Assembly: GCF_014396975.1 (NCBI RefSeq) | Contig: NZ_CP060719.1 | Location: forward strand, 1,274,001-1,338,000 | Source of the DNA: Thermomonas carbonis | Lineage (GTDB): Bacteria; Pseudomonadota; Gammaproteobacteria; Xanthomonadales; Xanthomonadaceae | Length of the DNA: 64,000 bases | Reading direction: 5' to 3' | In this document: positions 6,359 to 56,297 of the stretch, piece by piece | Layout of the letters: each line of letters opens with the position of its first letter | Numbering within the stretch: the stretch's first letter is position 1 | Program-made: the position numbers and the translations under genes | Notes under the pieces: model-generated | Databases searched by the model: none | The model's input: the letters and a program-made list of their open reading frames with translations, nothing else | What the model was told of the DNA's origin: nothing

Positions 6359-6458
6359 GCGGCGGTCCTGAATCGAAGTCGGCGAAGGTTAGCAGCCGTG
6401 GCAATTCGCGCTTGAGCCGAAGGTTGCGGCACTGGCCCTGCGCGATGATGCGGCGCAC

Positions 6459-6464
6459 AATACT
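6459..6464 (+). promoter_or_regulatory. Candidate -10 element upstream of cydA
   Basis: AATACT followed by CCG, 40 bases before the cydA start. Similar ATACTCC hexamers precede the genes at 15030 and 33764. No good -35 hexamer is visible at the right spacing. Confidence 0.3.
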
Positions 6465-6504
6465 CCGTGGGCGTCGCGCCCACGCGCGGCGCGGAGTGCC
6501 ATGC

Positions 6505-7917
6505 GTGGATGCATTGCTGCTGTCGCCGCTGTTTCTTTCCCGAGTGCAGTTCGGATTCGTCATCTCGTTCCACATCCTGTTCCCGGCCTTCACCATCGGC
6601 TTGGCCAGCTGGCTGGCCTTCATCGAATGGCGCTGGCTGCGCACAAAGGACGACCTCTGGCGGGACCTGTATTTCTTCTGGCTGAAGATCTTCGCGGTCT
6701 CGTTCGGCATGGGCGTGGTCAGCGGCATCGTGATGAGCTTCCAGTTCGGCACCAACTGGGCGGTGCTCAGCGAGAAGGCCGGCAACATCCTCGGCCCGCT
6801 GCTCAGCTATGAAGTGCTGACCGCGTTCTTCCTCGAAGCCAGCTTCCTCGGGGTGATGCTGTTCGGCTGGAAGAAGGTCTCCGACAAGCTGCATTTCTTC
6901 GCGACGATGATGGTCGCCGTCGGCACCATGATCTCGACGTTCTGGATCATCTCCGCCAACAGCTGGATGCAGACGCCGCAGGGCTACAGCCTGGACGCGC
7001 AGGGCGTGTTCTACCCGGAAAGCTGGTGGGCGATCGTGTTCAATCCGTCGTTCCCGTACCGGCTGGCGCACATGGTGCTCGCGGCGTTCATCACCACCTG
7101 TTTCGTGATCGGTGGCGTCAGTGCCTGGTACCTGCGGCGCGGCGTGCACGTCGAGGCCGGCAAGCGGATGCTGAAACATGCGGTGGCCTTCGCAGCGATC
7201 GCGGTGCCGCTGCAGATTTTCGTCGGCGACCTGCATGGCTTGAACGTCGGCGAGCACCAGCCGGTGAAACTGGCGGCGATGGAAGCGCACTGGCGCAGCG
7301 AACCACCGGGCCATGGCGTGCCGCTGATCCTGTTCGCGGTGCCGAACGAGCGCGAGGAACGCAACGATTACGAAATCGCCATCCCGAAACTGGGCAGCAT
7401 CATCCTGACCCACACGCTGGATGGCGACATCCAGCCGCTGACCGCGGTCCCGCGCGAGGAACGCCCGCCAGTGGCGCCGGTGTTCTACGCGTTCCGGATC
7501 ATGGTCGGGCTGGGCATGGCGATGCTGCTGCTCACCCTTGCCTCGCTGTGGGCGTGGAGGCGCAAGACCTTGTTCACCTCGCGCTGGGTGCTGGACGGCT
7601 GGCGCGTGTTGGCACCGTCCGGCTTCATCGCATTGCTGGCGGGCTGGTACGTGGTCGAGATCGGTCGCCAGCCGTACGTGGTGTATGGCCTGTTGCGCAC
7701 GGCCGATGCGGTGAGTCCGAACATCGTCGCGGCGGCGGTGCTGACCTCGCTGATCGTGTATGCCGCGGCGTATGCCTTCGTGTTCGGTGCCGGCATCTGG
7801 TACCTGCAGAAACTGTTGCGAAAAGGCCCGGTCAAGCAGCCGCCGAAGGACACCGAGGGCGGCGAGAAGACCCCGGCGCGCCCGATGTCGCTGCCGGACG
7901 AGAAAATCGAGGGGTGA
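6505..7917 (+). CDS. cydA: Cytochrome bd ubiquinol oxidase subunit I, CIO-like
   Basis: Catalytic subunit of the bd-type terminal oxidase, which oxidises ubiquinol and reduces oxygen to water in the inner membrane without pumping protons. The 470-residue product has many membrane helices, the heme b595 ligand His in FVISFHILFP (residue 23), the b558 ligand region YRLAHMVLAA, the FRIMVGLG methionine segment and the GRQP motif in GWYVVEIGRQPY. It is shorter than E. coli CydA (522 aa), consistent with the short Q-loop of cyanide-insensitive oxidases. The start is chosen as GTG 6505 because GGAG lies eight bases upstream and the protein then begins at the first helix. cydB follows only after about 500 bp containing a nuclease gene and repeats. 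Confidence 0.93.
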   Translation: MDALLLSPLFLSRVQFGFVISFHILFPAFTIGLASWLAFIEWRWLRTKDDLWRDLYFFWLKIFAVSFGMGVVSGIVMSFQFGTNWAVLSEKAGNILGPLLSYEVLTAFFLEASFLGVMLFGWKKVSDKLHFFATMMVAVGTMISTFWIISANSWMQTPQGYSLDAQGVFYPESWWAIVFNPSFPYRLAHMVLAAFITTCFVIGGVSAWYLRRGVHVEAGKRMLKHAVAFAAIAVPLQIFVGDLHGLNVGEHQPVKLAAMEAHWRSEPPGHGVPLILFAVPNEREERNDYEIAIPKLGSIILTHTLDGDIQPLTAVPREERPPVAPVFYAFRIMVGLGMAMLLLTLASLWAWRRKTLFTSRWVLDGWRVLAPSGFIALLAGWYVVEIGRQPYVVYGLLRTADAVSPNIVAAAVLTSLIVYAAAYAFVFGAGIWYLQKLLRKGPVKQPPKDTEGGEKTPARPMSLPDEKIEG

Positions 7918-7937
7918 ATGGAGATCCCCATGCGCAC

Positions 7938-7980
7938 TTGCTCGTCATTCCTGCGAAGGCAGGAATCCCGTGTCTTTGAT
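7938..7980 (+). repeat. Left copy of the palindromic repeat flanking the GIY-YIG gene (family A)
   Basis: Contains a 20-bp palindrome at 7947-7966 (8-bp arms, GAAG loop). Bases 7938-7968 match the reverse complement of 8296-8326 exactly over 31 bp. The match resumes as GTCTTTGA nearer the gene, giving about 43 bp with three mismatches in that part. The repeat starts about 20 bp after the cydA stop. Confidence 0.9.
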
Positions 7981-7989
7981 CTTCGATAA

Positions 7990-8280
7990 ATGAAACAACC
8001 GACTGTCTACATGTTGGCAAGTGAGCGAAACGGGACTCTGTATGTGGGTGTCACTAGCGATCTCATCGCCAGGACCTGGCAGCACAAGGAACACGCTGTC
8101 GATGGGTTCACCAAGCAATACGACGTGACGATGCTGGTCTGGTACGAGCTGCATGGGCAGATGGAATCCGCCATCCAGCGTGAGAAGCAGATCAAGGCAT
8201 GGAAGCGGGAATGGAAGATGCGGTTGATTGAAGAGGCCAATCCATACTGGAAGGATCTTTGGCCGGATGTGATCGGGTAA
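7990..8280 (+). CDS. GIY-YIG nuclease family protein, 96 aa, inserted between cydA and cydB
   Basis: Small single-domain GIY-YIG protein of the COG2827/UPF0213 type. The tyrosine strands VYML and LYVG lie at residues 6-20, the catalytic arginine in IARTWQHK at about 28, and the metal-binding glutamate in QREKQIKAWKR at about 64. The length is normal for the family, so the domain looks intact. It starts 10 bases after the left inverted repeat and ends 3 bases before the right one. Family members are predicted DNA endonucleases; most have no known role. The position inside an inverted repeat that splits cydA from cydB suggests a mobile cassette. Endonuclease activity and mobility are inference. 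Confidence 0.88.
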   Translation: MKQPTVYMLASERNGTLYVGVTSDLIARTWQHKEHAVDGFTKQYDVTMLVWYELHGQMESAIQREKQIKAWKREWKMRLIEEANPYWKDLWPDVIG

Positions 8281-8283
8281 GGC

Positions 8284-8326
8284 TTCAAAGACGCTGGATT
8301 CCTGCCTTCGCAGGAATGACGAGCAA
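8284..8326 (-). repeat. Right copy of the palindromic repeat flanking the GIY-YIG gene (family A)
   Basis: Inverted partner of 7938-7980. Bases 8296-8326 are an exact reverse complement of 7938-7968, and the TCAAAGAC tract towards the gene also matches. It holds the same hairpin (8298-8317). Together the two copies bound a 389-bp unit. Confidence 0.9.
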
Positions 8327-8337
8327 AGGCGCAAGGC

Positions 8338-8409
8338 GTCTTTTCCTTCGCGGGAATGACGAGCCAAAACAGAAGGCGTTCCTGCCTTCGCATGCATGAC
8401 AAGCAAGGG
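8338..8409 (-). repeat. Two further degenerate tandem copies of family A before cydB
   Basis: After the right inverted repeat, the CTTCGC-x-GGAATGACGAGC core recurs at about 8338-8377 and 8378-8409, giving three direct copies with a 40-42 bp period counting from 8296. The later copies lose hairpin symmetry. They end next to the cydB start, so they may have supplied its leader and ribosome-binding sequence. Confidence 0.7.
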
Positions 8410-8418
8410 CTGATGCAA

Positions 8419-9426
8419 ATGGAGTACTGGCTTCCCGTCATCTGGTTCGGCGTGATCGGCTTCGGCGTGCTGATGTACGTGCTGCTGGATGGCTTCGTGC
8501 TCGGCCTCGGCATCCTCGCGCCGTTCGCGGAGGACGAGCATCAGCTAGACCACATGATGAACACCGCCGCGCCGATCTGGGACGGCAACGAGACCTGGCT
8601 GGTGCTCGGCGGTGCCGGCCTGCTGGCGGCATTTCCGAAGGCGTATGCGCTGATCCTCTCCGCGCTGTACCTGCCGGTGCTGATGATGCTGATCGCGCTG
8701 GTGTTCCGCGGCGTGGCCTTCGAGTTCCGCTTCAAGGCGGAGCGTTCGAAGTGGCTATGGGGCTGGGCGTTCGCGCTGGGCTCGCTGTGCGCAGCGTTCT
8801 GGCAGGGCGTGATCCTGGGTGCGATCGTCGAGGGCATGCCGCTGCAGGAAGGCAAGTACGTGGGCGGGATGTTCGGCTTCTTCAGCCCGTTCTCGATGCT
8901 GACTGGTGCGGCGGTGGTGTTCGGTTACGCGCTGCTCGGTGCGTGCTGGCTGATCCTGAAGACCGGGGGCGAACTGCAGAAGACCGCGCGCACGCTGGCG
9001 CGGCCGCTGGTGCTGGTGGTGGTCGCCTTCATCGGCCTGGTCAGTGCATGGCTGCCCTTCCTGAGCTCGAAGATCATGGCGCGCTGGTTCGATACCGGGA
9101 ATTTCTGGTGGCTGTCGCCGGTGCCGCTGCTGGTGCTGCTGGTCGCGTTCGCGCTGTGGCGCGCGGCGATGGAACAGGGGCGTGACGGCAAGCCGTTCAT
9201 CCTCACCCTGTGCCTGTTCGCGCTGGCCTTCGCCGGGCTGGTGCTGGGGATCTGGCCGTACATCGTGCCGCCGTCCCTGACGATCTGGCAGGCGGCCTCG
9301 CCGCCGTCGTCGCAGGGCTTCGTGCTGGTCGGGCTGGTGGTCCTGCTGCCGGTGATCCTGGGCTACACGTGGTGGTCGTACCGGGTGTTCGCCGGCAAGG
9401 TGGAATCGGACAGCGGTTACCACTGA
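8419..9426 (+). CDS. cydB: Cytochrome bd ubiquinol oxidase subunit II
   Basis: Membrane partner of CydA, 335 residues with about nine hydrophobic helices. The N-terminus MEYWLPVIWFGVIGFGVLM, the LDGFVLGLGIL segment, the WDGNETWLV motif and the GFVLVGLVVLLPVILGYTWW region near the C-terminus are typical of CydB. The frame is open from 8356 through repeat sequence; I start at ATG 8419, with ATG 8413 possible. The only Shine-Dalgarno candidate, AAGGG near 8405, is part of the last degenerate repeat. No short CydX-type gene is seen after it. The repeat cassette between cydA and cydB should make two-subunit expression depend on read-through or on a new promoter. Confidence 0.92.
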   Translation: MEYWLPVIWFGVIGFGVLMYVLLDGFVLGLGILAPFAEDEHQLDHMMNTAAPIWDGNETWLVLGGAGLLAAFPKAYALILSALYLPVLMMLIALVFRGVAFEFRFKAERSKWLWGWAFALGSLCAAFWQGVILGAIVEGMPLQEGKYVGGMFGFFSPFSMLTGAAVVFGYALLGACWLILKTGGELQKTARTLARPLVLVVVAFIGLVSAWLPFLSSKIMARWFDTGNFWWLSPVPLLVLLVAFALWRAAMEQGRDGKPFILTLCLFALAFAGLVLGIWPYIVPPSLTIWQAASPPSSQGFVLVGLVVLLPVILGYTWWSYRVFAGKVESDSGYH

Positions 9427-9528: not shown

Positions 9529-9798
9529 ATGCACGCCTACGTCTACAAGAGCCTGAAAAAGGCCGATACCTACGCCTACCTCGCACGTCGCGACGACTTC
9601 GCGTGCCTGCCGGATGCCGTGCGCGCACAGTTGGGTGAATTGCGCTTCGTGCTGGACGTTGCCCTGGTCGAAGGCCGCAAGCTCGCCCTGGCTGACCCGG
9701 CTGTCGTGCGCAAGAACCTGGCCGGGCAAGGCTTCCACCTGCAGTTCCCGCCGACCATGGCCGATCCGATGAGCGAGGACTGGGGCACCGATGCCTGA
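9529..9798 (+). CDS. YcgL domain-containing protein
   Basis: 89-residue protein that begins MHAYVYKSLKKADTYAYL, the signature of the YcgL family (small alpha/beta fold, biochemical role unresolved). The FHLQFPPTM segment near the end is also conserved. Its stop overlaps the start of the ankyrin gene by 8 bp, so the two are translationally linked. A leader of about 100 bp separates it from cydB and may carry its promoter. Confidence 0.85.
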   Translation: MHAYVYKSLKKADTYAYLARRDDFACLPDAVRAQLGELRFVLDVALVEGRKLALADPAVVRKNLAGQGFHLQFPPTMADPMSEDWGTDA

Positions 9799-12700
9799 GC
9801 GGCATCCCGGGATCGGCGTGGCCCTGTTGCTGGCCGGCCTGCTGCTCGCCGCGGCGTGCTGGTTCGATGTCGGCAGCGCCGGCGTGGCGGCGTGGCTGGC
9901 ACAGGTGCCGGCGGCGCTGGGCATCGCCTTCCTGCGCGGTACCCGCAAGCGCGCGCGCCTGGCAGCCGACGCCGGCAGCCTGACCCTGTTGTGGGCGGGC
10001 GGATTCTTGCTGGCGGGCGCATTGCTCGCGTTTCCGCTGTATCGCCTGCTGGTGGCACCGGCGCTGTTGCCGGTACTGGCGCTGAGTACGGCAGCGGGCC
10101 TGCTGCTGGTGCTGCTGTGGCGGCACTGGCCGCTGTGGCACGGCAGCGAGCGCGAAGGCGGCCGGCTGGGGCTGCGCTTCGGCCGCCAGCACCTGCAGGA
10201 TCGCCAGGCTTGGCGCGGATTGCTGCAAGTGGCCTTGCCGGCGTTCCTGCTGCTGGCCGGCGGCGTATTGCTGGCCTGGCCGGGCCTGCTGGCCGGCCAG
10301 GTGCGCATCGTCGCCACCGCGATCTACATCGGCCTGCTGCCCGTCGCCCACCTGCTGCTGCAGGCCTCGCCCGCTCTGGCGTTGGCGCACGGCCTGCCGG
10401 TGGTGGAGATGGACGCCATCGAAGACGAGGCCGACGAACTCGCCGTCGAGGTCGACGACGTGCCGGAACTCGCGCTGCCGCTGGTCACCGTGCCGACGGT
10501 CGACAGCGTGGCGCTGGGCCGCGAGTTGTACGCGGCCGCGCGCAACGGTCGGGTCGACAAGGGCTTGCAACTGCTCGACGCCGGTGCCGACCCGAACCTG
10601 CCGCCCGAGGTAGGCGCGCGCGATCGTCGCGGCTTGCCGGTGCTGGCCGCGGTGCTGCCCGACCTGCGCCTGCTGCGCGCATTGATCGAGCGCGGCGCCG
10701 ACGTGAACCTCATGCTGGCCGGCATGAACCCACTGCTGGCGGCCACCCGCGACAGCTGGCACGGCCGCCCGGAAGCGGTGATGACCCTGCTCGCCAATGG
10801 TGCCGATCCGCGCGCCACCGACGCCGACGGCAACACTCCGCTGCACCACGCCGCGCGCAGCTCCGATCCCGGCGTGGCCGCACTGCTGCGCGATGCCGGG
10901 GCGGAGATGGATGCCCTCAACGTCGATGGCGTATCGCCGCTCGGCACGGCCTGCAGCAGTGGCAACTGGCGGCTGGCGCGCTTCCTGCTGGAGCGCGGCG
11001 CGAAGACCGAACCGGTCGGCGGGCAACCGGTCTTGCTGGCCGCGGCCGGCACCGAGGAAGACGATGCCGCCGGCGTGCAGCTGCTGCTGCGCCACAAGGC
11101 CCGCGTGGATGCCCGCGACGCCCGCGGCCGCAGCGCCCTGCACGAAGCCGCGTTCGCCGGCCACGCCGGCATCTGCGAAGCGTTGCTGGATGCGGGTGCG
11201 GATGCGAATGCGCGCGACAGCGAAGGCCGCACGCCATTGTTGGATGCTGCACGCGCCGGCGCGCTGCCGGCTCTGGAGGCGCTGGTCACGGCCAAGGCCG
11301 ATACGCAGGCCAGCGATGGCCGCGGCGCCAACGCGCTGCACTTGGCCTGCGCCGCCGAAGCGCCCTCGGCGGTGCTGGTCCGCCGCCTGCTGGAACTGGG
11401 CGTCGACCCGCGCGCTGCCGACGCGCAGGGCCAGGGCGCGATCGACCTGGCGGCCTCGGCCGGGCGCTGGACGCTGGTGGCTGCGCTGGATCCGCAACGC
11501 GCGCTGCCGGTATCGATGGGCGAGGACGACGGCGCGCCTGACCGTCCGCCGCCGCTGCTCTTGCGCGAGCGCCTGCTGGACGAGGCGGCGATCGAGACGC
11601 AACTGGCGGCACTGCTGCCGCTGCTGGCCCGTGGCGACCTGGACGGCCTGCTCTGCGATGCCGATGTCGCCGCGGATCCCGCCCGCGTCGCCTGGCTGCT
11701 GGCCCGCGGTGCCAACCCGGAAGCGCGGGTGCGATCCGCGGTGATGCCGGTGCCTGCCGCATTGGCGCGCGGCACCGCCGGCATCGCCAACGCCCGCCTG
11801 CTGTTCGCGCGTGGCGGCTCGCCGGCCGGCGCGGGCGGGCTGGCCAGCTACCTCGCCGCCTGCCTGACCGAAGGCTTCACCGATGCGCAGGGCGAAGGCT
11901 TCGCCCTCGAACTGCTGGAGCGTGGCGCGGATCCCTACGCGGCCTCGCCGGCCGGCGATCCGCCGGTCGCATTGGCGGTGCGCCTGCACTGGCCGCAGCT
12001 GCTGCAGCGGCTGGTCGCGCACGGCGTGGACCTGGACGCGCGCGACAGCCACGGCATGAGCGCGCTGCACCTGGCCGCGGCGCTCGGCCGACTGGACGAA
12101 CTCAAGCAATTGATCGCCGCCGGCGCGGCCCCGGATCGGCGCGCAGCGGACGGACAGACGCCGCTGGGCGTGGCCCTGGCCGCGGGTCGGCGCGACCTGG
12201 CCGGCTGGCTGGACTGGCGTGGCTGGCGCTTGCCGCGTCGCCCGCTGCAGCCGGTCGACCTGCCGGCCGCGGCGATCGTCGGTGACCTCGACGCGGTCCG
12301 CCGCCTGCTGGACCTGGGCTTGCCGGTGAATGCCGTCGACAACCAGGGCTGCAGCGCCTTGCTGCGGGCCGCGGGTGGTGGCCATCGCGCGCTGGTCGAA
12401 TTGCTGCTGGAACGTGGTGCCGACCCGACTTTGGCCGCGAATACCGGTGCCACCCCGTTGTCGGCGGCGGTGAGCATGCGTCAGCTGGAGATCGTCGAGC
12501 GCCTGCTGGAGTCGGGCGCGGGCCTGGAGCAGCGGCTGCCGGGCGATGTCACCGTGCTGATGCTGGCCGCGGCGCTTGGCCTGCCGGAACTGGTCTCGCG
12601 CCTGCTCCAGGGCGGTGCCGACCTGCATGCGGTGGATGCGCAGGGACTCACTCCGCTGCATTGCGCCGCGCTCTACGGCTTCACCGCCCGCGACCGCACC

Positions 12701-13117
12701 CGCCTGCTGGCCTTGCTGGATGCGCTGCTGCTGGCCGGTGCCGATCCGCAACGCACCGCGACCGGTGGTGCCACCCCGCTGCTGCTGCTGCTCGGTGCAC
12801 GCGCGGAACCCGGCACGCCGAGCGCCGAGGACGTGGTACTGGCGGGCGTGGAACGGTTGTTCGACGAGGATGTGCGCCTGGATGCGCGCGACCAGCGCGG
12901 CTTCGGCCCGCTGCATCTGGCCGGCCTGCACGGGCTGCTGCGGGTCGCCCAGGCGCTGCTGCGCGAAGGTGCCGATCCCGACCAGCGCGACCTGCTCAAC
13001 CGAACCCCGCGCGAGATCGCGCTGATGCGCGGTTATGTCGACGTCGCGGCCGAACTGGCGTTGCCCGGCAACGCGCCGCAAGCGCCCGTCTCGATGGCGC
13101 GTTTCCTGCGCGAATAA
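9791..13117 (+). CDS. Large membrane-anchored ankyrin-repeat protein
   Basis: 1108 residues. Residues 1-195 hold about five hydrophobic segments (near 8-25, 60-84, 88-110, 143-165, 172-190). An acidic linker follows at about 196-212. From about 225 to the end there are some 20 or more ankyrin units, with recurring G-x-TPLHxAA and LLExGADPN motifs. The repeat domain is probably cytoplasmic and serves as a protein-binding scaffold; the partner is unknown. It overlaps the ycgL stop by 8 bp. GC is very high, so the opposite strand shows a 1292-codon open frame with low-complexity composition, which I reject. The ankyrin assignment is firm; the function is open. Confidence 0.9.
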   Translation: MPERHPGIGVALLLAGLLLAAACWFDVGSAGVAAWLAQVPAALGIAFLRGTRKRARLAADAGSLTLLWAGGFLLAGALLAFPLYRLLVAPALLPVLALSTAAGLLLVLLWRHWPLWHGSEREGGRLGLRFGRQHLQDRQAWRGLLQVALPAFLLLAGGVLLAWPGLLAGQVRIVATAIYIGLLPVAHLLLQASPALALAHGLPVVEMDAIEDEADELAVEVDDVPELALPLVTVPTVDSVALGRELYAAARNGRVDKGLQLLDAGADPNLPPEVGARDRRGLPVLAAVLPDLRLLRALIERGADVNLMLAGMNPLLAATRDSWHGRPEAVMTLLANGADPRATDADGNTPLHHAARSSDPGVAALLRDAGAEMDALNVDGVSPLGTACSSGNWRLARFLLERGAKTEPVGGQPVLLAAAGTEEDDAAGVQLLLRHKARVDARDARGRSALHEAAFAGHAGICEALLDAGADANARDSEGRTPLLDAARAGALPALEALVTAKADTQASDGRGANALHLACAAEAPSAVLVRRLLELGVDPRAADAQGQGAIDLAASAGRWTLVAALDPQRALPVSMGEDDGAPDRPPPLLLRERLLDEAAIETQLAALLPLLARGDLDGLLCDADVAADPARVAWLLARGANPEARVRSAVMPVPAALARGTAGIANARLLFARGGSPAGAGGLASYLAACLTEGFTDAQGEGFALELLERGADPYAASPAGDPPVALAVRLHWPQLLQRLVAHGVDLDARDSHGMSALHLAAALGRLDELKQLIAAGAAPDRRAADGQTPLGVALAAGRRDLAGWLDWRGWRLPRRPLQPVDLPAAAIVGDLDAVRRLLDLGLPVNAVDNQGCSALLRAAGGGHRALVELLLERGADPTLAANTGATPLSAAVSMRQLEIVERLLESGAGLEQRLPGDVTVLMLAAALGLPELVSRLLQGGADLHAVDAQGLTPLHCAALYGFTARDRTRLLALLDALLLAGADPQRTATGGATPLLLLLGARAEPGTPSAEDVVLAGVERLFDEDVRLDARDQRGFGPLHLAGLHGLLRVAQALLREGADPDQRDLLNRTPREIALMRGYVDVAAELALPGNAPQAPVSMARFLRE

Positions 13118-54803: not shown

Positions 54804-54882
54804 CGTCATTCCGGCGAAAGCCGGAATCCAGCTCCTGGCCATACATCGCAAATGCTGGATCCCGGCTTTCGCCGGCATGACG
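54804..54882. repeat. Gene-less inverted pair of family A palindromes
   Basis: Two 29-bp copies in opposite orientation, 54804-54832 and 54854-54882, match with two mismatches and are separated by 21 bp. Each copy contains the ATTCC-x-GCGAA-x-GC-x-GGAAT hairpin seen around the GIY-YIG gene. There is no ORF between them. They lie upstream of the MATE gene. The rest of the 183-bp gap contains an alternating CG tract at about 54758-54780. Confidence 0.85.
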
Positions 54883-54905
54883 GCGAGAACCCACGCACCG
54901 CACGC

Positions 54906-56297
54906 ATGTCCAATAGGAAAAACCCGCCGCGCTTCCGCGAGGAAGTCGCCCGCACCGCGCGCCTGGCCGCCCCGCTCGCGGCCGGGCATCTGTCGCATGG
55001 GCTGGTCGGCTTCGTCGACACCGTGGTCGCCGGCCACCATGGCACCGACACCCTGGCGGCAGTCGCGGTCGGCACGGCGATGTTCTGGTTGCCGATGATG
55101 CTGCCGATGGGCGTGCTGATGTCGCTGCCGCCGGCCGTGTCGCAGCTGGATGGTGCCGGTCGTCGCGGCGAGATCGGCCCGCTGTTTCGCCAGGCGCTGT
55201 GGCTGGCATTGGCGCTGGGCGTGTTGCTGTTCGGACTGATGACGCTGGCACCACTGGCGCTGGCCCCAATGGGCATGGCCACGGACATCATTCCCGGCGC
55301 GACCGATTTCATCCACGCGATCCGTTGGGGCATCCCGGCGTTCACCCTGTACCTGGCGATGCGCTATCTCAGCGATGGCCTGCACTGGTCGATGCCGACG
55401 ATGGTGCTGGGTTTCGGCGGCCTGCTGTTGCTCGCGCCGCTGGGGTACGTGCTGGCCAATGGGCGCTTCGGCTTTCCCGAGATGGGCGCGGCGGGCCTGG
55501 GCATCGCCTCCGCGCTGATGTTCTGGGCGCAGGCGATCGCGTTCGCGCTGTACCTGTGGCGCTCGCGCCGCTTCGCCGACCTGCAGCTGTTCTCGCATTG
55601 GCAGCGCCCGCGTCGTGCCGTGCAGCGCGAGCTGCTGCGCACCGGCCTGCCGATCGGGGTGATGGTGGCGATGGAGGGCAGTCTGTTCATCGTCACGGCG
55701 CTGCTGATCGGCCGGCTGGGCGAACTGCCGGTGGCCGCGCACCAGATCGCGATCAACGTGGCCTCGATGTGTTTCATGATCCCGTTCGGCGTGGCCGAGG
55801 CCACCACGATCCGCGTGGGCCATGCGCTCGGCCGCGGCGATCGCCGCGGCCTGCGCTACGCGTATTTCGCCGGATTGGTACTGGTGCTGACCACGCAGAC
55901 GATCTCCGCGATCGTGCTGTTGACCGGTAATCACGCCATCTCCGCGCTTTACACCAGCGATGCTGCGGTGGCCGCACTGGCGGCATCGCTGCTGCTGTAC
56001 GCCGCGCTGTTCCAGTTCCCGGACGGCATCCAGGTGCTCTCCGCCGGTGCGTTGCGCGGCCTCAAGGACACCCGCATCCCGATGCTGCTTGCGATGCTGG
56101 CGTATTGGGGCATCGGCATGCCGGTGGGTGCTGGCCTGGGCCTGGCGCTGGGCTGGGGGCCGCGCGGGATGTGGCTCGGCCTGACCGCCGGGCTGACCGT
56201 CGCGGCATTCCTGATGGCGCGTCGATTCTTGCGCAGCAGCCTGCGTGTCCCCATCGTGTCCACTTCGCCATCGGTCACGGTGACCGACGGCGGATGA
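54906..56297 (+). CDS. MATE family efflux transporter
   Basis: 463 residues with 12 predicted helices in two homologous halves (GLVGFVDTVVAGHHG in the first and VAMEGSLFIVTALLIGRLG in the second), typical of NorM-like cation-coupled multidrug exporters. The first conserved region begins at ATG 54906 (MSNRKNPPRFREE); the frame is open to 54852 through repeat sequence, so an earlier start is unlikely. No Shine-Dalgarno sequence is obvious. Substrate unknown. It follows the family A repeats by 23 bases. Confidence 0.9.
   Translation: MSNRKNPPRFREEVARTARLAAPLAAGHLSHGLVGFVDTVVAGHHGTDTLAAVAVGTAMFWLPMMLPMGVLMSLPPAVSQLDGAGRRGEIGPLFRQALWLALALGVLLFGLMTLAPLALAPMGMATDIIPGATDFIHAIRWGIPAFTLYLAMRYLSDGLHWSMPTMVLGFGGLLLLAPLGYVLANGRFGFPEMGAAGLGIASALMFWAQAIAFALYLWRSRRFADLQLFSHWQRPRRAVQRELLRTGLPIGVMVAMEGSLFIVTALLIGRLGELPVAAHQIAINVASMCFMIPFGVAEATTIRVGHALGRGDRRGLRYAYFAGLVLVLTTQTISAIVLLTGNHAISALYTSDAAVAALAASLLLYAALFQFPDGIQVLSAGALRGLKDTRIPMLLAMLAYWGIGMPVGAGLGLALGWGPRGMWLGLTAGLTVAAFLMARRFLRSSLRVPIVSTSPSVTVTDGG

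Follow-up and report, generated by a model that had tools for sequence, protein, structure and literature searches.

Between cydA and cydB of Thermomonas carbonis lies a small gene for a predicted GIY-YIG nuclease, enclosed by two inverted palindromes, and the locus raises the question of whether gene and palindromes are parts of one mobile entity and which enzyme would drive it. The question reaches beyond this site. CGTC-tagged REPs are known from five phyla with no dedicated transposase apparent, and the part of the text of Di Nocera et al. (2013, PMC3733652) available to us leaves the matter for later. We propose that the gene and its two hairpins constitute one unit of the RAYT/REP kind, run by an unrelated predicted nuclease; the probability that we give to this reading is roughly 0.7. 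The features of the window, that is, the whole 64,000-nucleotide stretch of DNA analysed, are collected in Table 1.

Table 1. Features of the window that bear on the nuclease gene and its repeats
Feature	Position	Strand	Basis
GIY-YIG nuclease gene (predicted), 96 aa, single domain	7990..8280	+	PF01541, E 5.8e-15
Left CGTC-tagged REP, CGTC tag outward, tail gene-ward	7938..7968	+	31-bp exact inverted match; hairpin -8.5 kcal/mol
Right CGTC-tagged REP, tag outward, CCA tail gene-ward	8296..8326	-	Same as for the left arm
Inner extension of left arm (GTCTTTGA, common to right arm)	7969..7979	+	Inverted-repeat pair
Inner extension of right arm	8285..8295	-	Inverted-repeat pair
Extra partial REP downstream (CCTTCGCGGGAATGACGAGC)	8345..8364	-	95% complementary to left arm
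Degenerate third REP copy, opening the third 40-bp direct repeat	8385..8404	-	60% to reference copy
Gene-less REP dimer, same tags-outward layout	54804..54882	.	Upstream of predicted transporter gene, ORF 54852-56297
cydA, left neighbour	ORF 6412..7917	+	PF01654, E 5.4e-166
cydB, right neighbour	8420..9426	+	PF02322, E 2.2e-97; start by comparison with G016, G001 and G010

The nuclease ORF is free of internal stops, and its product gave 55.8 bits with PF01541 (cut-off 22.6) over residues 5-77 of 96, the sole Pfam match; no known transposase family is matched by the enclosed gene, PHROGs and NCBIfam yielded no match for the protein, and no second same-strand gene of the window's ORF list fits between the arms. 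In a 25-row alignment Y7, Y18, R28, H32 and N84 are invariant and E65 is conserved in at least 90%; we take the Tyr, Tyr, Arg, His, Glu and Asn at those positions to be the GIY-YIG catalytic residues, and the subgroup is presumably COG2827. Profile comparison matched the UPF0213 structures 1zg2 (E 4.1e-6) and 1ywl (0.0017), and SLX1 weakly (0.062). Caulobacter crescentus, for which three COG2827 genes appear in the available text of PMC1839093, is among the CGTC-positive species of PMC3733652, likewise in its available part. On the right side of the gene, the cydB ORF spans 8356-9426 and comparison makes the ATG at 8420 its likely true start; close to cydB, a 1108-aa ORF (9791-13117) has a sequence that resembles ankyrin repeats.

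The arms belong to an inverted repeat of 52 nt with 90% identity (7928-7979 and 8285-8336), in which, by inspection, a run of 31 bp is exact (TTGCTCGTCATTCCTGCGAAGGCAGGAATCC; 7938-7968 against 8296-8326 reversed) and the inner GTCTTTGA supplies a second match. From the gene to the inner ends of the arms there are 10 bp and 4 bp. The earlier note had described, from the letters alone, an intact 96-codon gene between cydA and cydB, a perfect 31-bp inverted repeat with a second inner match, and a gene nearly filling the space between the repeats, and each of these descriptions was confirmed. Both arms fold into a hairpin with an 8-bp stem and a 4-nt loop (DNA energies; z -4.1 and -3.5), both carry the CGTC tag (GCTCGTCATTCC...), and their stems start with complementary AT, as the definition of CGTC-1 REPs asks; the unpaired tail is CCA in the right arm and CCC, a variant, in the left. 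The arms are CGTC-tagged REPs, members of a known superfamily. They share with the dRS3 elements of Neisseria and RPE-4/6 of Rickettsia, as described in the text available of PMC3733652, the tag, the AT-starting 8-bp stem, the 4-nt loop, the CCA tail and head-to-head dimers; they differ in that no dedicated enzyme is assigned in that text, whereas here a gene family is tied to the REPs. The 24-bp REP core occurs three times in the window at up to three mismatches (expected 0.00). Between the unit and cydB, three 40-bp direct repeats (8305-8424) contain decaying REP copies, which suggests local REP duplication.

The genome of the window (G000; 3.46 Mb, one contig) contains 48 REP sites at up to two mismatches, against none for the reversed pattern. 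All 12 adjacent REP pairs less than 1.5 kb apart are oriented with their tags outward; 11 of them are dimers spaced 54-77 bp and the twelfth, spaced 355 bp, encloses the gene, so that the unit resembles a REP dimer with a gene inside. The close dimers account for 22 of the 48 sites, all tag-outward, and the remaining sites are mostly single. The enclosed gene is the sole homologue in this genome at E <= 0.001. The description of hairpin ends without a transposase was right on both points and missed that the ends form a genome-wide family in which gene-less copies are far commoner. The gene-less dimer at 54804-54882 was found in one of 23 congeneric loci at up to four mismatches (the G011 locus being badly anchored), and G016 has a degenerate one by eye.

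Empty sites were sought at cydA-cydB of the congeners. Orthologous cydB is present in five of them, six others having distant ones only (33-36%). The unit lies at cydA-cydB in G000 and G016 and is absent from G001, G003 and G010, in which the cydA stop overlaps the cydB start and no REP is seen. Hence it does not hold that all close relatives carry the gene at the same place: two of five do, and three of five are clean empty sites. The G016 gene has 79% protein identity to the window copy, and the pair gives dN 0.139 and dS 1.08 (NG86), the latter near saturation; the resulting dN/dS of about 0.13 indicates that the gene is under constraint. Because the G016 copy occupies the same place, the unit of the window is no fresh insertion. 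The cyd tree of the five species gave no resolved order and the transporter-gene tree groups G000 with empty-site species, and three histories agree with this: one gain and then a clean loss, two gains, or exchange of the cyd operon. Both copies may go back to one old event; a single-origin insertion was tried as an explanation and stays one of the histories that fit. The hexamer ATGGAG is repeated on both sides of the G000 unit; no clear duplication was seen in G016 or at the ligD sites described below.

Flanking of the gene elsewhere was assessed by a motif-free comparison of the 200 bp upstream with the reverse complement of the 200 bp downstream, a score of at least 15 being taken as flanked. 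The 142 loci used gave 144 located copies, 143 of them with enough flank; outside this set stand L133 (flank too short), L087 (no hit of 60 residues) and 20 later paralogue loci. Inverted repeats matched around 102 of the 143 homologues at this score and around 109 at 12 or more, as against 10 of 1344 equal-spaced intervals in the same loci, 11 of 201 other ORFs and 174 of 1700 cross-locus pairings. The sample is not random, since the loci taken first include many that matched the query best; in the later fill-in loci (L063-L142) 55 of 79 copies were flanked by our own count. Sampling usually took one copy per genome, and 16 of 102 gene-positive genomes of the phylum, mostly low-scoring or edge-cut, were left unsampled. 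A crude search for tags in the 102 flanked copies gave 65 outward, 7 inward, 13 both and 17 without tag, several of the last having variant tags by eye. Matching inverted CGTC-type REPs are seen to enclose the predicted nuclease in most copies examined, nearly all from Pseudomonadota, and the possibility that the gene is rarely flanked elsewhere did not hold. The 41 copies unflanked at a score of 15 are interspersed with the flanked ones in the tree (34 label changes against 36 in shuffles). At E <= 1e-10 the gene occurs in 43 of 119 relatives (G000 included), in 5 of 25 genomes within the genus, and in 102 of 398 genomes of the phylum sample, with up to six genes per genome among the matches listed. 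At L077 (G095) and at L037 (G392) the GIY-YIG gene stands as a tandem pair of closely similar copies less than 1 kb apart.

Movement of the unit is best followed in pairs of loci. Nineteen pairs have at least 220 bp in common across the gene, with an identity of 78% or higher. In 11 of them long flanks are also common, which indicates that copies are often inherited in place; the other eight share 401-477 bp only, that is, the unit. Seven of these eight are within g188, an alphaproteobacterial genus, and the eighth, L098/L108 from another genus, has 401 bp in common and nothing more. In g188 the common block has 74-89% identity and measures 514-529 bp in full copies and 417-477 bp in L139, L140 and L237. 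It is the sole homology between the 3' end of ligD (five species), L138 (G286), L140 (G188), the orthologous loci L135 and L136, and L237 (G172), whose right flank ends at the contig end; flanking ORFs of the tested loci gave no cross-locus hit beyond short repeat matches. Homology between these loci begins, and in full copies also ends, about 20 bp or less from the outer CGTC tags. By this comparison, the inverted repeats bound the moving segment in g188, and the REP-gene-REP unit moves as a discrete block. Two loci of the same genome, L138 and L238 (both G286), share 743 bp, which exceeds the unit and may represent a larger duplication. In G172 the three examined copies occupy three loci. 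Units at different loci can resemble each other more (89.9%, L138 against L237 of G172) than ligD units do across species (77.4-88.6%), with species distance contributing to these values (L136 is left out of the table of unit identities). The idea of a minimal mobile cassette thus gains from another genus the movement of the unit seen by comparison, although the cydA-cydB copy that gave rise to it is not fresh.

Among 30 ligD loci, five hold the unit, three a lone REP (G520, G535 and G543) and one half a REP (G528); the other 21 have no recognisable CGTC REP, with a possible tag remnant in G510 and a G532 locus that covers 307 bp past the stop only. The lone REPs carry a tag at each end, as a deletion between the stems that took out the middle of a unit or dimer would leave them. 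Among loci L207-L236 the REP includes the stop codon of ligD in G168, G520 and G535, and in many other species that position is taken by an unrelated CCTCTCCCCC-type repeat. Carriage of the gene by phages was considered and rejected, 50,697 phage records having given no match at E <= 1e-5.

If the nuclease acts on its repeats, gene and repeats should vary together. REP stems differ widely across loci and the two arms of one gene match each other; several flanking REPs have stems longer than, or quite unlike, those of CGTC-1 REPs. The unusual type that flanks the G112 gene has 18 copies in G112 and none in the other 118 genomes; the one that flanks the G072 and G094 genes, with 46 copies in G072 and 2 in G094, is absent from the remaining 117, and in G094 it is unamplified, the two copies being those that adjoin the gene. 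Protein and arm similarity are correlated (Mantel r 0.518, with 0 of 2000 permutations as high; 94 of the 102 flanked copies, arm length 20-75), a correlation that partly reflects common descent. The number of REPs also follows the gene. With the common REP pattern, whose reversed control was 0 in every genome, the median in f1, the family of the window's genome, was 46 REPs with the gene (n=24) and 1 without it (n=47; Mann-Whitney p 1.2e-9), and with one genome for each of the other 46 genera of f1 the medians were 46 (n=19) and 0 (n=27; p 5e-8). Other REP types dominate elsewhere in the order, and there the common pattern gave medians of 1 and 0, a weak co-occurrence. Ten of 76 gene-negative relatives carry at least 10 common REPs. 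REP-rich genomes that are gene-negative at E <= 1e-10 include G105 (68), G118 (64), G022 (48) and G063 (30).

The CGTC REPs might instead be moved by a RAYT or another Y1 transposase, the GIY-YIG gene being a passenger caught between two REPs. Y1_Tnp (PF01797; RAYT/IS200 family) is common, being present in 84 of the 119 relatives, and any short gene could be enclosed by a REP pair; however, REP number in f1 is independent of Y1_Tnp (p 0.17), with medians of 46 and 44 with and without it in gene-positive genomes and of 1 and 0 in gene-negative ones. Seven gene-positive f1 genomes lacking Y1_Tnp keep high REP numbers (median 44), other ORFs are seldom bracketed (11/201), and Di Nocera et al., in the part of their text available, found CGTC REPs around no tyrosine transposase gene (PMC3733652). 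RAYT was rejected as the mover because its presence leaves REP number in f1 unchanged, and the passenger explanation is very improbable. Alternatively, the protein could be a host repair enzyme like SLX1 or YhbQ that resolves REP hairpins or cruciforms, in which case it would keep its place next to REPs because it is regulated by them or because they mark its sites, and mobility would amount to no more than repeat recombination. The structure matches given above agree with this, as do the prediction, in the accessible portion of PMC1564403, that prokaryotic Slx1-like proteins act in break repair, the annotation of the unflanked E. coli yhbQ as a DNA damage response nuclease, the likeness of the three lone ligD REPs to deletion products of a unit or dimer, and the inheritance in place of 11 of the 19 close pairs. 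Nevertheless, a housekeeping gene would account less well than a selfish unit for the patchy presence (5/25 in the genus, 43/119 relatives), the several copies of some genomes, the differences in REP type and the homology of unrelated loci over the unit alone, and we regard a repair role as unlikely.

GIY-YIG is the fold of I-TevI-type homing enzymes, and in homing endonucleases such as I-TevI and T4 Seg the GIY-YIG gene spreads selfishly, as proposed here for the unit. By homing, the nuclease would cut REPs that lack the gene and break repair would copy the gene into an existing dimer, so that only the gene moves. That the gene occupies exactly the position of the dimer spacer, that a lone REP is found at three ligD sites where five others hold the unit, and the shared fold are all in keeping with such a process. 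On the other hand, the empty cydA-cydB sites hold no REP, the lone ligD REPs are tagged at both ends as after deletion from a unit or dimer, and REPs and gene are common to the loci as one block; moreover, Pfam detects no homing DNA-binding domain or NUMOD in the protein, and the unit differs from homing endonucleases also in its hairpin ends and in having no phage match. Homing is accordingly quite unlikely, a little more so than a repair role.

We return to the reading in which nuclease and REPs form one unit. Like the REPtrons of RAYT (TnpA-REP), as described in the available parts of PMC3733652 and PMC8266576, it places a single small enzyme gene between tagged palindromes in inverted orientation, its cognate REPs are scattered through the genome, and enzyme and REP type are paired; it differs in its enzyme, a 96-aa GIY-YIG protein and not an HUH/Y1 transposase, in its tag, CGTC and not GTAG, and in a REP number independent of Y1_Tnp. 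With UPF0213 (YhbQ, YazA) and Slx1-like proteins it shares a single-domain GIY-YIG protein, 1zg2 and 1ywl being the closest solved structures by sequence; in contrast, E. coli yhbQ has no flanking REPs. Dunin-Horkawicz et al. (2006, PMC1564403) put standalone prokaryotic GIY-YIG domains in the Slx1 group and described one case in which such a domain had recently inserted into an HsdR gene; in the portion of that text available REPs are not mentioned, and the group is given "no C-terminal Asn", whereas the family of the window keeps an invariant N84 (25 rows). A table of a Moraxella clade includes RAYT and a GIY-YIG gene, with no link drawn in the text available (PMC9465073), and the text of RepRanger (2025, PMC12306157) is without the words "nuclease", "GIY", "transposase" and "RAYT". 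Among the matches listed by a search with preprints and most subscription papers outside its scope, we found no literature tying GIY-YIG to REP, RAYT, REPIN, CGTC or dRS3.

In the model that we propose, the unit is a REP dimer in which the nuclease gene would replace the short spacer. The predicted nuclease would recognise and nick its own REP hairpin, the substrate being single-stranded or extruded DNA at replication forks. Gene-less REP dimers would be the non-autonomous form, copied often, and the whole unit would be copied rarely (one to six genes per genome). GIY-YIG enzymes hydrolyse DNA and are not known to form a covalent intermediate, and strand joining would thus need other factors; host repair or replication would finish the insertion. 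At cydA-cydB the unit would have entered at the overlap of stop and start, leaving both genes intact. The predicted nuclease would then play for CGTC REPs a role akin to that supposed of RAYT for GTAG REPs, with an unrelated catalytic fold. The action of the enzyme on REPs is what we infer from these comparisons of sequence.

A hint of the substrate comes from one lineage. In G072 the orientation of a 37-bp REP type largely follows the replichores, plus in the first half and minus in the second, with a switch near 2.97 Mb. Its 64 sites form 36 clusters: 12 are plus, 1 minus and 1 mixed at 0-2.1 Mb, a stretch of mostly positive sampled GC skew, and 15 are minus, 2 plus and 2 mixed at 2.976-5.8 Mb. 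The outliers are two plus clusters, at 2.62 and 2.96 Mb, in a region of already negative sampled skew, and one ++ cluster at the contig end; Fisher tests gave p 1.7e-5 without the three outliers, 2.3e-4 counting them against, and 0.005 with conservative grouping. The switches of skew and of REP orientation are some hundreds of kb apart. This orientation hints at single-stranded DNA at forks in this lineage; strand bias as a general feature was rejected, single REPs of G000 being without bias by eye.

We give about even odds to the wider claim of a class of bacterial transposable elements with CGTC ends in which a single-domain GIY-YIG nuclease, the sole protein, recognises its own hairpin ends, moves as REP-nuclease-REP and powers CGTC REP families at large, dRS3 included, in convergence with RAYT, with co-evolving REPs and strand-oriented insertion in at least one lineage. 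If true, GIY-YIG nucleases would join the enzymes that spread DNA repeats, the REP/enzyme arrangement would have a second, independent origin, and the patchy small 'UvrC-like' genes of many genomes would be explained. For the question raised in 2013 about the missing transposase of CGTC REPs, a specific family of small proteins that are easy to purify now offers a direct test.

A collection of plasmids extends the sample: 33 records had a match, of which eight were examined together with E. coli K-12. Six of these nine copies reached the score of 15 taken as flanked (Neisseria gonorrhoeae, Azospirillum lipoferum, Sinorhizobium meliloti, Novosphingobium aromaticivorans, Sphingobium and Shinella), the Planktothrix copy scored 14, and Photobacterium and E. 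coli yhbQ scored 8, with no repeat. The available text on CGTC REPs names Neisseriae (dRS3), A. lipoferum, S. meliloti and N. aromaticivorans (PMC3733652). On p1 of Planktothrix agardhii (L178) the GIY-YIG gene has an MmeI-like restriction enzyme on one side and DISARM drmA on the other, with GTCATTCTGAG repeats nearby, and on A. lipoferum pAZO3 (L175) a REP-flanked GIY-YIG gene splits the sufB/sufC operon, with REP dimers on both sides.
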